Positions 10,307 through 14,670 of a stretch of 64,000 bases of DNA are shown here, one piece after another; the first letter of the stretch is position 1; each line of letters starts with the position of its first letter. The position numbers and the translations under genes were made by a program. This DNA is from Rhizobium sp. NRK18 (lineage in GTDB: Bacteria > Pseudomonadota > Alphaproteobacteria > Rhizobiales > Rhizobiaceae). The notes below the pieces were generated by a model. It did no database searches and had not been told where the DNA came from. It saw only the letters and a list, made by a program, of their open reading frames with translations. Where the stretch lies: positions 2,261,681-2,325,680 of the forward strand of contig NZ_JANFMV010000001.1 in the NCBI RefSeq assembly GCF_024385575.1, read 5' to 3'.

Positions 10307-11409
10307 GCCGACACCTCCTTCGGCTTGGCCGCCAGCCGTTTCTCCAGCCGGATGACGGCGAAGGCGGCCAGCGCGACGAAGACACCGGACAGGAGGAAGA
10401 AGCCGGACGTGCCGATCAGGCTCCCGATCGTCTCGTTGCAGAGATAGATGAGTTCGGCGGCAAAGATGAGGTAGGCGAGATAGCGGACGATGCCGTTGTC
10501 GCGGCCGTTCAGCATCAGGGCGACGACCGTGGCGACGATCACCGCGACCGCGACGGAAATCCTGCCGGCCGTTCCATCAAACCGGTCATGCAGGAATGCG
10601 AGGCCGGCAATCATCAGCAGGAAGACATAGGTCGCCGGAATGCCTCCGGCAGCCGCGTTGGCACTGCGCAACGGCGATATCGGCAGGACCGCCGTCAGGA
10701 ACGCCGCCGCGCCGGCCAGCGTATAGACAATCGCCAGCGCGTCATTCTCGTGCTCGAAATAGAACCAGAACAACCAGGCGAGAATCAGCAGATAGGAGAA
10801 ATGCCGCGCCCGCGCCGGGCCTGTGTAGTAGACCAGTGCAATGATCGCAGCCGCCATCGCAAGCGGCATCAGGCCCTGGACCGAGTTCCAGGCCGAATAA
10901 TCGTCGAACATCAGATTGCTGAAATAGGCCCAGGAGAGAAAGCCAGCGATCACCGTCGGCCCGCCGGATCTGAACAGCACCGCTGCCAGCATGGCAAACA
11001 GGAACCAGGTCATCAGGAAGGTCTGACTGTCGCCGGAGATGTGATACATCTGCGCCGTCAGCGACACCGTGCCACCGAAGCACAGAACCGCGAGGATCAG
11101 GAGCGCCCCGCCGAGATAGTCGGCCCCTCTGATGAAGAAGGCTGCGGCCCCCATATAAAAGGCCGTGACGAGGGCCAGCATCGAAACAAGCCGCACGCCA
11201 CGCGGCAGCGCATCCCAGTTCGAGGCGATCAGCATGGCGATCGCGGCCGCGATCAGCAGCGCAGAGAGAACCATCAGCACGCGGCCGACGCTGAAGGCGC
11301 CGGAGGGTCGCGCGTCATACTCCGCGAGCATGGCATCGGCGGCGGGCCTGCCGACCAGCCCCTGCGCCACCCAGCGCTCCATATCCTGCTGCAAGCGATT
11401 CCTGTACAT
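10303..11409 (-). CDS. DUF2157 domain-containing integral membrane protein
   Basis: Polytopic protein of about 368 residues. A short soluble N-terminal DUF2157 domain (about residues 1-40, RLQQDMERWVAQGLV) is followed by ten or more hydrophobic helices. No enzymatic motif is evident and the function is unknown. The ATG at 11409 is chosen because GAGGGG lies just upstream and the family domain begins here; the frame is open further upstream to 11484. The stop codon overlaps the start of the GDYXXLXY gene. Confidence 0.87.
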   Translation of the reverse strand: MYRNRLQQDMERWVAQGLVGRPAADAMLAEYDARPSGAFSVGRVLMVLSALLIAAAIAMLIASNWDALPRGVRLVSMLALVTAFYMGAAAFFIRGADYLGGALLILAVLCFGGTVSLTAQMYHISGDSQTFLMTWFLFAMLAAVLFRSGGPTVIAGFLSWAYFSNLMFDDYSAWNSVQGLMPLAMAAAIIALVYYTGPARARHFSYLLILAWLFWFYFEHENDALAIVYTLAGAAAFLTAVLPISPLRSANAAAGGIPATYVFLLMIAGLAFLHDRFDGTAGRISVAVAVIVATVVALMLNGRDNGIVRYLAYLIFAAELIYLCNETIGSLIGTSGFFLLSGVFVALAAFAVIRLEKRLAAKPKEVSA

Positions 11410-11622
11410 GCCCCTCACCCGATTCAAACATGGCCTTCGGAAACAAAAATTCCGTTGACCGCCATTGGCGGAAACATGAACCACATCGGGGAAATCAACA
11501 AGACCGGCGATCGCGCCCAGAACGGCATGGCTCCGTGACCCGACGGTTGTTGAGACATTTCAATAGATTACGAATGATTGTGGGAAACATAGCCATGCAC
11601 TGAGCGCATATCTTGCATGCGA

Positions 11623-11659
11623 TTATTGCACTGCACAAAACGGAATGATCATACTATAT
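11623..11659 (+). promoter_or_regulatory. Putative promoter and regulator box for the CUCCUCC sRNA
   Basis: CTGCAC (11631-11636) and CTATAT (11654-11659) are spaced 17 bases apart, fitting the alphaproteobacterial sigma-70 pattern. The 13-mer TTATTGCACTGCA (11623-11635) overlaps the -35 element and recurs exactly upstream of the third DUF1127 gene (12890-12902), which suggests a shared activator. In Brucella and Agrobacterium the LysR-type regulator VtlR/LsrB controls DUF1127 genes and sRNAs; linking this box to it is inference. Confidence 0.4.
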
Positions 11660-11665
11660 TCCAAT

Positions 11666-11845
11666 CATCGGATGACGGCGGAAACACTCTCTCTCGCTTC
11701 CCCTCATCGAAAAGAATTCGGATGAAGCGCGCTCCTCCTCCCAGCGCTCTTCCGATATAGACTGGCTAGCACTCCTCCTCCCAGCTATCCAGTCGACCAA
11801 AATGACGCTCACCGGATCTCCTCCCCCGGTGAGCGTTATTTTTTT
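11666..11845 (+). ncRNA. Small RNA with three CUCCUCC-loop hairpins (cuckoo / alpha-r14 / CcsR-like)
   Basis: No protein frame is apparent, but three stem-loops lie in a row. Hairpin 1 has stem AGCGC/GCGCT (11726-11730 with 11744-11748) and a 13-nt loop G-CTCCTCCTCCC-A. Hairpin 2 has stem GACTGG-C-TAGC/GCTA-T-CCAGTC (11760-11794) and a 13-nt loop A-CTCCTCCTCCC-A. Hairpin 3 is an 11-bp stem ACGCTCACCGG/CCGGTGAGCGT (11805-11836) with loop ATCTCCTCCC and a T7 tract. The identical anti-Shine-Dalgarno loops and the adjacent DUF1127 genes match the alphaproteobacterial RNA family called cuckoo, alpha-r14 or, in Rhodobacter, CcsR. These RNAs are expected to pair with ribosome-binding sites of target mRNAs. 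The 5' end is inferred from the putative promoter and may lie nearer 11700. Confidence 0.75.
11805..11845 (+). terminator. Intrinsic terminator of the CUCCUCC sRNA
   Basis: A perfect 11-bp stem (11805-11815 with 11826-11836) carries the loop ATCTCCTCCC and is followed by TATTTTTTTG. The terminator loop itself carries the anti-SD motif. Confidence 0.88.
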
Positions 11846-11915: not shown

Positions 11916-11948
11916 CCCTCTACCTGAATGCGGCAGTGCAACATATAT
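11916..11948 (+). promoter_or_regulatory. Conserved leader block upstream of DUF1127 gene 1
   Basis: This 33-base block matches the block at 12297-12329 in 27 positions by eye, including the shared core TGCAACATA. It lies about 61 bases before the start codon, against about 64 in the second copy, so it is probably promoter or operator sequence duplicated together with the gene. Confidence 0.45.
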
Positions 11949-12008: not shown

Positions 12009-12152
12009 ATGAACATCAGCCGCTCTTTCGCAAACTGGCGCAAGTATCGTCAGACCGTCAACGAACTGCAGAAGATGAACAGCCGCGAACTCGCCGACCT
12101 CGGCATCAACCGCGCTGACATCAACCGCGTTGCCCGCGGCGCAGTCCTCTAA
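12009..12152 (+). CDS. DUF1127 small protein, copy 1
   Basis: Arginine-rich mini-protein of 47 residues that fits the DUF1127 pattern W-x-x-Y-R-x-T-x-x-E-L ... R-E-L-x-D-L-G-I-x-R-x-D-I. The ATG at 12009 follows AAAGGAAC with normal spacing, and the protein aligns end to end with copy 2. DUF1127 proteins act in RNA metabolism and stress or phosphate/carbon adaptation; Rhodobacter CcaF1 is an RNA-binding example. The gene follows the CUCCUCC sRNA, as DUF1127 genes and such RNAs neighbour each other in other alphaproteobacteria. A small hairpin (AAAGTC ... GACTTT) and a terminator follow the stop codon. Confidence 0.9.
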   Translation: MNISRSFANWRKYRQTVNELQKMNSRELADLGINRADINRVARGAVL

Positions 12153-12182
12153 AGTCTCCTCATTTACCGGGACTTTCAAAAT

Positions 12183-12210
12183 GCCTCCGCCTCGGCGGGG
12201 GCTTTTTTGT
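12183..12210 (+). terminator. Intrinsic terminator of DUF1127 gene 1
   Basis: GCCTCCGC pairs with GCGGGGGC across a CTCG loop, with one G-T pair, and is followed by TTTTTT. Confidence 0.8.
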
Positions 12211-12296
12211 GTGTGAATCAGGCGGTCCTTCCGCCCTCCCGAACGCCCCCAGGCACCCCTGAGCCTTGCAAGAATGCATAGGTGCCATGCCGAAGA

Positions 12297-12329
12297 CCCT
12301 CTAGCTCAATGCTGCGATGCAACATACAT
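12297..12329 (+). promoter_or_regulatory. Conserved leader block upstream of DUF1127 gene 2
   Basis: Second copy of the block at 11916-11948, with the same TGCAACATA core at nearly the same distance from the start codon. The sigma factor or regulator is not identifiable by eye. Confidence 0.45.
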
Positions 12330-12392: not shown

Positions 12393-12536
12393 ATGAACCT
12401 GACCCGCTCTTTTTCCAGCTGGCGCAAGTACCGTCAGACCGTCAGCGAGCTTGATCGCATGTCCAACCGCGAACTCGCAGACCTCGGCATCAGCCGGCCC
12501 GACATCCGTCGCGTTGCCCGCGCTGCAGCGTTCTAA
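12393..12536 (+). CDS. DUF1127 small protein, copy 2
   Basis: A 47-residue tandem paralogue of copy 1: both share W-R-K-Y-R-Q-T-V-x-E-L and R-E-L-A-D-L-G-I. The ATG at 12393 follows AAAGGAAC, as in copy 1, and the conserved leader shows that promoter, UTR and gene duplicated as a unit. It has its own terminator, so it is probably transcribed independently. By family, a regulatory or RNA-associated role is likely; no direct target can be named. Confidence 0.9.
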   Translation: MNLTRSFSSWRKYRQTVSELDRMSNRELADLGISRPDIRRVARAAAF

Positions 12537-12812: not shown

Positions 12813-12889
12813 ATCCGATCAAATAGAAAGCCTGTTTTTTATTCAACCCACTGCACAATTGCATAGCAGTAGCCTATTTTTTGCACTCG

Positions 12890-12981: not shown

Positions 12982-13125
12982 ATGAGCCCGATTCGCTATG
13001 CCAAAAATTGGATCAATTATCGCCGCACTCTCAAAGAACTCGGCAACCTCTCCAGCCAAACCCTGGATGACATTGGCCTCAGCCGCTATGACATCCGCTC
13101 TATTGCAGCAAAGTCCTTCCGCTAA
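12982..13125 (+). CDS. DUF1127 small protein, copy 3 (divergent)
   Basis: A 47-codon gene whose product keeps the DUF1127 spacing (W at 10, Y-R near 13-14, T-L-K-E-L, then L-D-D-I-G-L-S-R-Y-D-I-R) but has diverged from copies 1 and 2. The ATG follows TTGAGGAAACC, a good ribosome-binding site. It lacks the conserved leader block of the other two and instead has the TTATTGCACTGCA box. The upstream 150 bases are clearly AT-richer than the surroundings. It ends at its own terminator before trmFO. Confidence 0.85.
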   Translation: MSPIRYAKNWINYRRTLKELGNLSSQTLDDIGLSRYDIRSIAAKSFR

Positions 13126-13233: not shown

Positions 13234-14670
13234 ATGAGCAAGACATCCTCGACCGACACACCCATCCACGTCATTGGCGGCGGCCTCGCCGGATCCGAAG
13301 CGGCCTGGCAGATCGCCAGCGCCGGCATTCCCGTCATTCTCCATGAAATGCGCGGCGTGCGCGGCACGGACGCCCACAAGACCGACGGGCTCGCCGAACT
13401 CGTCTGCTCCAATTCCTTCCGCTCCGACGATGCGACGAGCAATGCCGTCGGCGTCATCCATGCCGAAATGCGGCTTGCCGGTTCGCTGATCATGCGCTCG
13501 GCCGATGCGCATCAGGTGCCGGCCGGTGGTGCGCTGGCCGTGGACCGCGACGGCTTTTCCGACGCCGTCACCGCCACGATTGCCGGTCATCCGCTGATCA
13601 CCGTCGTGCGCGAGGAAATCAGCGGCCTGCCGCCTTCCGACTGGGGACAGGCGATCATCGCCACCGGGCCACTCACCGCGCCCTCGCTCGCCGCCGCCAT
13701 CCAGGAGGAGACCGGCGCCGATGCGCTTGCCTTCTTCGACGCGATCGCCCCGATCGTGCATACCGACAGCATAGACATGGACATCTGCTGGTACCAATCG
13801 CGTTACGACAAGGTCGGTCCGGGCGGCACGGGCAAGGACTACATCAACTGCCCGATGAACGAAGAGCAGTACAATACCTTTGTCGACGCTCTGATCGCCG
13901 GCGACACCGTCGGCTTCAAGGAATGGGAAGGTACGCCCTATTTCGACGGCTGCCTGCCGATCGAGGTGATGGCCGAGCGCGGTCGCGAGACCTTGCGCCA
14001 CGGTCCGATGAAGCCGATGGGGCTCACCGATGCCCACAACCCGACCGTCAAGCCCTATGCCGTCGTCCAGCTGCGCCAGGACAATGCGCTCGGCACGCTC
14101 TACAACATGGTCGGTTTCCAGACGAAGCTGAAATACGGCACGCAGGCCGAGATCTTCCGGATGATTCCGGGCCTCGAGAACGCAGAATTCGCGCGTCTCG
14201 GCGGCCTGCACCGCAATACCTACATCAATTCGCCCGTCCTGCTCGATCCGTCGCTGACGCTGAAGGGCCGTCCCGGCCTGCGCTTTGCCGGCCAGATCAC
14301 CGGCTGCGAGGGGTATGTGGAAAGCGCCGCGATCGGGCTTTTGGCCGGCCGCTTCGCCGCTGCCGAGCAGAAAGGCGAGCCGATCTCGCTGCCGCCGGCG
14401 ACGACCGCCCTCGGATCGCTGCTCAACCACATCACCGGAGGCCACATCGTCTCTGACGATGAGCCGGGCAAACGCTCCTTCCAGCCGATGAACATCAATT
14501 TCGGACTGTTTCCCGAACTCGCCCCCGGCTCGATCGTCAAGCCGGTCGAGGGCAAGCGGTTCCGTGGCAAGGAAAAGGCGGCAATGAAGAAGCGGCTGAT
14601 GGCAGAGCGCGCGCTGGCCGACTGCGCCGATTGGCTGGGCCTTGAAACGCGCGAGAAGCAGGCCGTCTGA
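13234..14670 (+). CDS. trmFO: TrmFO, folate/FAD-dependent tRNA (uracil-54-C5) methyltransferase
   Basis: Makes ribothymidine at position 54 of tRNA using methylene-tetrahydrofolate and FADH2. The 478-residue protein begins with the FAD-binding glycine motif [12 protein letters not shown], and has the GidA-related motifs [11 protein letters not shown], YYxxxAPIV-like ([15 protein letters not shown]) and the C-terminal [14 protein letters not shown] typical of TrmFO. The ATG at 13234 has an AAGGAGG site 5 bases upstream. It stands alone between the DUF1127 cluster and a convergent unknown gene. Confidence 0.96.

Follow-up and report, generated by a model that had tools for sequence, protein, structure and literature searches.

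An ar14 small RNA with three anti-Shine-Dalgarno loops and its DUF1127 gene neighbours at the trmFO locus of Rhizobium sp. NRK18

To understand what kind of RNA lies ahead of three DUF1127 genes at the trmFO locus of Rhizobium sp. NRK18, how its transcription may be controlled and whether the adjacent genes belong to the same circuit, we analysed a 64-kb stretch of DNA containing this locus (hereafter, the window) together with related genomes. An Rfam scan of the whole window identified a match to the ar14 family (RF02344) at 11713-11841 on the plus strand, which scores 92.7 bits (E 1.3e-15) against a gathering score of 58.8 and covers the family model over its full length (1-123 of 123), in agreement with the ar14/cuckoo class that a sequence-only reading had proposed. 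The cuckoo RNA family is reportedly due to Reinkensmeier and Giegerich in 2015. Beside ar14, the scan returned three tRNAs and nothing else; a 6C-like match lay far under its cut-off (22.8 versus 47 bits) and no AbcR-type family was matched in the window. Among the 150 of 172 first-look candidates that were scored in the Rhizobium sp. NRK18 genome, the window copy is the only ar14 over the cut-off.

The predicted transcript, with its start taken from the -10 element and its end from the terminator, spans about 180 nt on the plus strand (11666-11845), and a 47-nt leader (11666-11712) that precedes the family model separates the predicted start from hairpin 1. The minimum-energy fold of 11666-11845, from which the loop positions were read, comprises a leader structure followed by three hairpins whose stem sequences differ from one another (-67.3 kcal/mol, z -6.25, none of 200 shuffles being equally stable). 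Hairpins 1 (11718-11755) and 2 (11760-11794) each display CUCCUCCUCCC in a 13-nt loop, at 11731-11743 and 11771-11783, respectively, and hairpin 3 (11799-11845) is the intrinsic terminator, with CUCCUCCC in a 10-nt loop at 11816-11825 and a T-run at 11839-11845. The two loops of equal length with a common core that had been noticed beforehand are thus recovered in the fold, and CTCCTCCTCCC occurs exactly twice in the window, on the plus strand at 11732-11742 and 11772-11782, a count reached in none of 100 shuffles (shuffle mean 0.05). The shorter CCTCCTCCC alone is also found twice in the window and is less remarkable, with at least two copies in 13 of the shuffles. The terminator loop, which was said to carry the motif too, does so as CTCCTCCC at 11818-11825. 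The RNA is like other members of the ar14/cuckoo family in its three hairpins, shared anti-Shine-Dalgarno (anti-SD) loops and unrelated stems (a layout described in PMC3927594 and PMC10746234), but its third loop is CUCCUCCC instead of the full CCUCCUCCC; the body is otherwise unremarkable.

The proposal that the loops are conserved while the stems are unrelated was examined in 40 relatives plus the genome of the window, where 88 ar14 matches at E <= 1e-3 were present in 32 of the 41 genomes. Fold statistics were based on the 58 matches over the cut-off, the window copy included; the 30 weaker matches, several of which contain no CTCCTCC at all, were set aside. In the minimum-energy folds of these 58 copies, bases of CTCCTCC were unpaired in 1296 of 1317 cases (98%), as against 1603 of 5766 other bases. 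Among the 56 of 58 copies with three usable hairpins, each stem arm paired with its own partner at 6.20, 6.52 and 6.96 of 7 positions for the three hairpins, compared with only 3.28, 3.47 and 4.78 of 7 when 3′ arms were swapped between sequences; the copies are related and hence do not represent independent events, and folding selects for paired arms, a bias that the swap control removes only in part. Hypervariable yet complementary stems thus accompany loops that are kept and unpaired, which is the opposite of the outcome named beforehand as damaging to the proposal (stems that co-vary around loops that are not conserved).

The gene order in the window (trigger factor, tRNA, GDYXXLXY, DUF2157, ar14, three DUF1127 genes, trmFO, a 145-amino-acid ORF that has no Pfam match, and squalene/phytoene synthase) resembles that of Sinorhizobium meliloti Ak57 (CP090106.1, labelled pSymB), in which tig, a tRNA, two ar14 copies (109.2 and 108.5 bits), two DUF1127 genes, trmFO, a hypothetical gene and phytoene/squalene synthase follow one another. 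The order tig, ar14, DUF1127, trmFO and SQS_PSY is therefore shared. The window differs from the Ak57 locus in the extra GDYXXLXY and DUF2157 genes between tig and ar14, in having one ar14 rather than two, and in its three DUF1127 genes, of which Ak57 has two annotated. Judged by the family model and by position, the window RNA is a member of the catalogued ar14 family and orthologous to the S. meliloti ar14 pair at the trmFO locus.

The founding member of ar14 is NfeR1 (SmelC397, Smr14C2) of S. meliloti, with which the window RNA shares the family model, three anti-SD loops, a CTATAT -10 element, an LsrB box at a similar distance and, as seen in Ak57, the surrounding tig, DUF1127 and trmFO genes. 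They differ in that the window transcript is predicted to be 180 nt long with its 47-nt leader, whereas NfeR1 has 123 nt, and in that the window has no NtrC site at the S. meliloti position. Copy 2 of Ak57 looks like the reported NfeR1 on our sequence reading: it begins right at the model, spans 123 nt and has an exact TGCA-N6-GCAT box between -70 and -57. A leader is common to the window copy and Ak57 copy 1 and is missing from the NfeR1-like copy 2. The window promoter is 72% identical to both Ak57 copies (61/85 to copy 1, nearly without gaps; 53/74 to copy 2, with gaps), and the window ar14 body is slightly nearer to copy 2 (97/119) than to copy 1 (97/123). The window copy may thus correspond to either of the two Ak57 copies. 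By eye, the leader of S. meliloti copy 1 is longer than that of the window RNA, and some relatives have none (the L044 copy, at 100 bits, and the second copy of L061).

Upstream of the window ar14, a predicted sigma-70 core promoter at 11631-11659 on the plus strand consists of a -35 CTGCAC (11631-11636) and a -10 CTATAT (11654-11659); a sigma-70 score of 9/12 was obtained in a register one base on from this reading, and a similar core promoter block is present in part of 12 aligned relative sequences. The position of the -10-like CTATAT makes a transcript start near 11666 plausible. In S. meliloti, LsrB is reported to activate NfeR1 from TGCA-N6-GCAT, the box in PnfeR1 being located at -72 to -57 (PMC10746234). 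An exact match to this LsrB-like box occurs in the window at 11596-11609 on the plus strand, between -70 and -57 relative to the predicted start, and counts by virtue of its position, because about 2.5 matches are expected by chance in the whole window. A second box of like type, ATGC-N6-TGCA, is likewise exact and is located at 11617-11630. The NtrC site TGC-N11-GCA is absent at -116 to -101, the single match within 11401-11720 being at 11614-11630; NtrC control as in S. meliloti was accordingly not retained, and NtrC repression of the window ar14 appears doubtful from the promoter sequence. According to PMC10746234, no clear site of this kind is seen in Agrobacterium or Brucella.

The adjacency of the RNA to DUF1127 genes that had been pointed out before is confirmed and recurrent. 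Three plus-strand genes encoding 47-amino-acid proteins follow it: DUF1127 gene 1 at 12009-12152 (PF06568, E 3.6e-15), gene 2 at 12393-12536 (E 1.8e-15) and gene 3 at 12982-13125 (E 3.3e-13), with trmFO (13234-14670, plus strand; PF01134 GIDA, E 2.5e-99) as the conserved downstream neighbour. Each DUF1127 gene has a box-like site in front of it: ATGC-N5-TGCA at 11928-11940 for gene 1 and at 12309-12321 for gene 2, and TGCA-N5-GCAT at 12852-12864 for gene 3; those of genes 1 and 3 are not exact published motifs, and gene 2 is additionally preceded by an exact published VtlR box, GCAT-N3-TG-N3-T, at 12276-12288. The accompanying analogy with the Rhodobacter layout did not hold for the window. 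Anti-SD-type RNAs stand beside a DUF1127 gene in both cases, and the association has been published as the CIN1 locus, but in Rhodobacter sphaeroides the gene (CcaF1, DUF1127) comes first and CcsR1-4 are cut by RNase E from a single precursor (PMC10253847), whereas in the window the RNA lies ahead of the DUF1127 genes, with a promoter box and a terminator of its own, and no DUF1127 gene lies directly upstream. Co-transcription of ar14 with the DUF1127 genes was rejected as the default because of the terminator after the RNA and the separate box-like site before each gene.

Of the 88 ar14 matches, 47 (in 26 of the 32 genomes) have a PF06568 match within 1 kb, in every case on the same strand, against a chance expectation of about 0.2 for proximity on either strand; the DUF1127 gene is upstream of ar14 in 37 and downstream in 10. 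Same-strand linkage spans 26 genera of the relatives set, and when tandem copies are counted once, 31 of 68 ar14 loci are near a DUF1127 gene. A second set was assembled from named genomes via the loop pattern (at least 120 stretches, 80 of them used) and gave 50 of 98 units with a DUF1127 gene no more than 1 kb away, every one on the same strand; this set consists mostly of Rhizobiales and Rhodobacterales, with five outliers kept in the count. These outliers (L110, L144, L147, L159 and L160) comprise a Streptomyces, two of Lachnospiraceae type, one of Bacteroidales and an actinobacterial metagenome-assembled genome, and possibly reflect low-complexity chance matches.

With the window TrmFO as query, trmFO was found in 24 of 67 ar14 loci (that of the window included), one per genome, which makes 24 of the 32 ar14-bearing genomes. 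At these loci the position of ar14 relative to the first DUF1127 gene differs between genera: ar14 leads in eight, as in the window, the DUF1127 gene leads in 15, and one is cut by a contig end. Two trmFO loci (L084 and L095) show an ar14-DUF1127-ar14-DUF1127 alternation. By eye, a short hairpin with a TCCTC loop is visible in the window at 12153-12202, between DUF1127 gene 1 and a terminator; it is not matched by the Rfam ar14 model and may be a worn ar14 remnant, a real ar14 being present at that place in L084 and L095.

Several other arrangements were noted in passing. Triple hairpins resembling ar14 follow phasin genes, with gaps of 9-73 nt, in L049, L053 and L068 and in the Mesorhizobium loci L123, L124, L127, L140 and L163; phasin identity derives from PF09361 in L053 and from similarity to L053 elsewhere, and phasin genes may constitute a second kind of ar14 host gene. 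Four ar14-like units in tandem in L087 (genome G020) and five partly overlapping ar14 matches at a contig end in L093 (G023) resemble the Rhodobacter CcsR1-4 cluster. At L098, in a 2.3-Mb genome (G031) from another family of the order, four DUF1127 genes and three weak matches of ar14 type stand in a row next to trmFO.

If the RNA and its neighbours are separately transcribed, do they share a regulator? VtlR, the name of LsrB in Brucella and Agrobacterium, is reported to control three Brucella DUF1127 genes through the motif CAATGCAGCCATGCA (PMC12595884), and the VtlR box is given as GCAT-N3-TG-N3-T (PMC7486931, PMC8844928). We therefore relied on the two literature motifs only, TGCA-N6-GCAT and GCAT-N3-TG-N3-T, a cleaner test than one with a motif picked by eye. 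These published boxes were found upstream of 24 of the 34 ar14 genes with neither a DUF1127 gene nor another ar14 before them (three of the 34 stand behind phasin genes), and upstream of none of 24 followers (0/19 directly after a DUF1127 gene, 0/5 in tandem). They also precede 30 of 46 DUF1127 genes, a set drawn from within the 67 ar14 loci and not chosen at random; the number expected by chance per sequence is 0.060 for 160 nt and 0.093 for 250 nt. The ATGC-N5/6-TGCA motif was first picked by eye in the window, and this half-site pair ranks first of all 300 pairs, occurring before 20 of 34 ar14 and 31 of 46 DUF1127 genes (pair means 0.48 and 0.73). In the named genomes, where 95 of the 98 units could be scored (three were too near an end), it precedes 26 of 60 ar14 units with their own promoter, none of 26 after a DUF1127 gene, one of nine tandem followers and 34 of 49 DUF1127 genes (expected 0.041 and 0.064). 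The box is thus found at leading units and almost never at followers, so that it marks the promoter that drives each unit. These boxes and the Brucella VtlR work make it probable that the DUF1127 genes in the window belong to the same regulon as ar14. LsrB/VtlR control and anti-SD seeds are also features of AbcR1 and AbcR2 (PMC8844928, PMC7486931), but these are different RNAs and are Hfq-bound in S. meliloti (PMC8844928).

Taken together, we consider it very probable that the window feature is a trans-acting ar14 small RNA, activated by LsrB/VtlR and silencing mRNAs through its three loops, that is orthologous by position to the S. meliloti pair at trmFO. By analogy with the S. meliloti work, the LysR-type activator LsrB/VtlR would most likely turn on ar14 through the box between -70 and -57, and LsrB-dependent expression would be expected under nitrogen and salt (osmotic) stress. 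The three exposed CUCCUCC loops would base-pair with target mRNAs at the Shine-Dalgarno region, blocking ribosome loading and promoting mRNA decay, and the variable stems would serve only to keep the loops open and to terminate transcription. One candidate target is ntrB, which is a confirmed NfeR1 target (PMC10746234). A PAS/histidine-kinase gene located behind a Dus gene in the genome of the window is ntrB by position, matching the order of Dus and ntrB in the S. meliloti dusB-ntrB-ntrC operon. Its predicted pairing with the window ar14 is moderate (-10.9 kcal/mol, 5 + 2 pairs around a mismatch), and 4 of 45 window genes, crudely called, pair as well or better, so that ntrB does not discriminate as a diagnostic target.

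Three other explanations deserve attention. The CCUCC loops copy the 3′ tail of 16S rRNA. They might consequently lower the translation of all mRNAs with a strong Shine-Dalgarno sequence, or soak up partners that bind the anti-SD, as the identical sequence in three loops, devoid of specific flanks, and the redundancy of the S. meliloti loops in silencing would allow; we give such general titration a slim chance, given that NfeR1 silences named target mRNAs through its loops in S. meliloti reporter experiments (PMC10746234). A somewhat different concern is that the working NfeR1 copy was lost from this genome, leaving a leader-type copy that is silent or weak and does little. Only one of the six S. 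meliloti copies is reliably detected on Northern blots (PMC7143759), the S. meliloti locus has two ar14 where the genome of the window has one, and the window copy has a leader as in copy 1, which the NfeR1-like copy 2 does not; yet the loops, the terminator, both boxes and the -10 are all intact, and among the candidates scored no better copy is known, which makes this reading unlikely.

The RNA might, finally, be nothing but a cis-acting leader or terminator of the downstream DUF1127 gene that is never released as a free RNA. The body ends 167 nt before that gene, on the same strand, but it is closed by a strong terminator with a T-run, a separate box-like site lies 81-69 nt upstream of the DUF1127 start, and the first DUF1127 gene precedes the RNA in 15 of the 24 trmFO loci; we regard a cis-acting element as highly improbable.

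The only other ar14 match among the candidates scored in the same genome (L002/L037), below the cut-off at 39.3 bits, lies directly after a 57-amino-acid ORF and therefore has the CcsR-like order of gene, then RNA. Here, an anti-SD hairpin array on the minus strand (L002:1495-1819, with the part 3′ of the gene at 1495-1648; z -6.40) displays three CCUCCUCCC loops, that of the terminator included. The ORF, termed DUF1127-like here, is recognised by neither Pfam nor NCBIfam; when its profile is compared with DUF1127, the probability is only 54%, across 25 columns, and it has 158 database relatives, with four of the 120 listed bearing a DUF1127/YjiS name. It is present in 40 of the 81 genomes sampled from the family, one per genus, and in 54 of 57 genomes of one other genus. 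At 59 loci with the 57-amino-acid gene, at least one TCCTCC occurs within 210 nt downstream in 30 and an ATGC-N5/6-TGCA box within 250 nt upstream in 37.

The array stem CCGCTYGAGC...CTCGCGG is shared by the genome of the window and 27 of 30 fetched loci of one other genus (L226, L227, L256-L283), and the more distant relatives (about 50-67% identity) mostly have a plain terminator, with a single TCCTCC in L230 and in L232. In an alignment of 28 genomes, whose array sequences were chosen by the stem of the second hairpin, this stem (CCCGCUYGAGC/GCUCGCGGG, with UCCUCC loops) is nearly invariant, and the terminator stem has changes on both sides in five pairs; hairpin 1 of the array yielded no consensus in these sequences. 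TCCTCC occurs in the hairpin-1 region in 23 of 28, in hairpin 2 in 23 and in both in 19, and TCCTCC or CCTCCC is found on the terminator side in two. The array, present in 27 relatives plus the genome of the window, is mostly unmatched by Rfam: among nine array loci searched at E up to 0.1, the one in the genome of the window was matched and the other eight were not. It may have been gained independently or may be an ar14 that has diverged strongly, and we favour independent gain because the stem is conserved and the terminator loop is mostly free of the anti-SD motif.

The ar14 RNA itself was to be expected; its family, hairpin layout and anti-SD mechanism have all been published, as has the association with DUF1127. 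The present analysis contributes a probable regulon link between ar14 and DUF1127 genes, the varying order of the two at the trmFO locus, and the second array. The proposed joining of the ar14 and DUF1127 halves of the LsrB/VtlR regulon was not met with in the literature examined: the word DUF1127 is absent from the main text of the NfeR1 paper (PMC10746234) and of PMC8844928, and the available text of a study on S. meliloti DUF1127 and tetracycline (PMC12218461) does not mention NfeR1, ar14 or LsrB; that of PMC5869019 (GsrN) and PMC11975290 has no bearing on the window ar14. The shared LsrB/VtlR-type boxes and the same-strand linkage predict that ar14 and DUF1127 act together, and the array, mostly unmatched by Rfam, offers an independent test of such joint action. 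As a tentative possibility, DUF1127 genes and anti-SD RNAs may form one LsrB/VtlR-controlled unit across the Rhizobiaceae, and not just in Rhodobacter. In such a unit the Hfq-independent ar14 RNAs would find their missing partner in the DUF1127 protein, and anti-SD hairpins would, with the array behind the 57-amino-acid gene as the second case, have been taken up on more than one occasion by 3′ ends of DUF1127 type.
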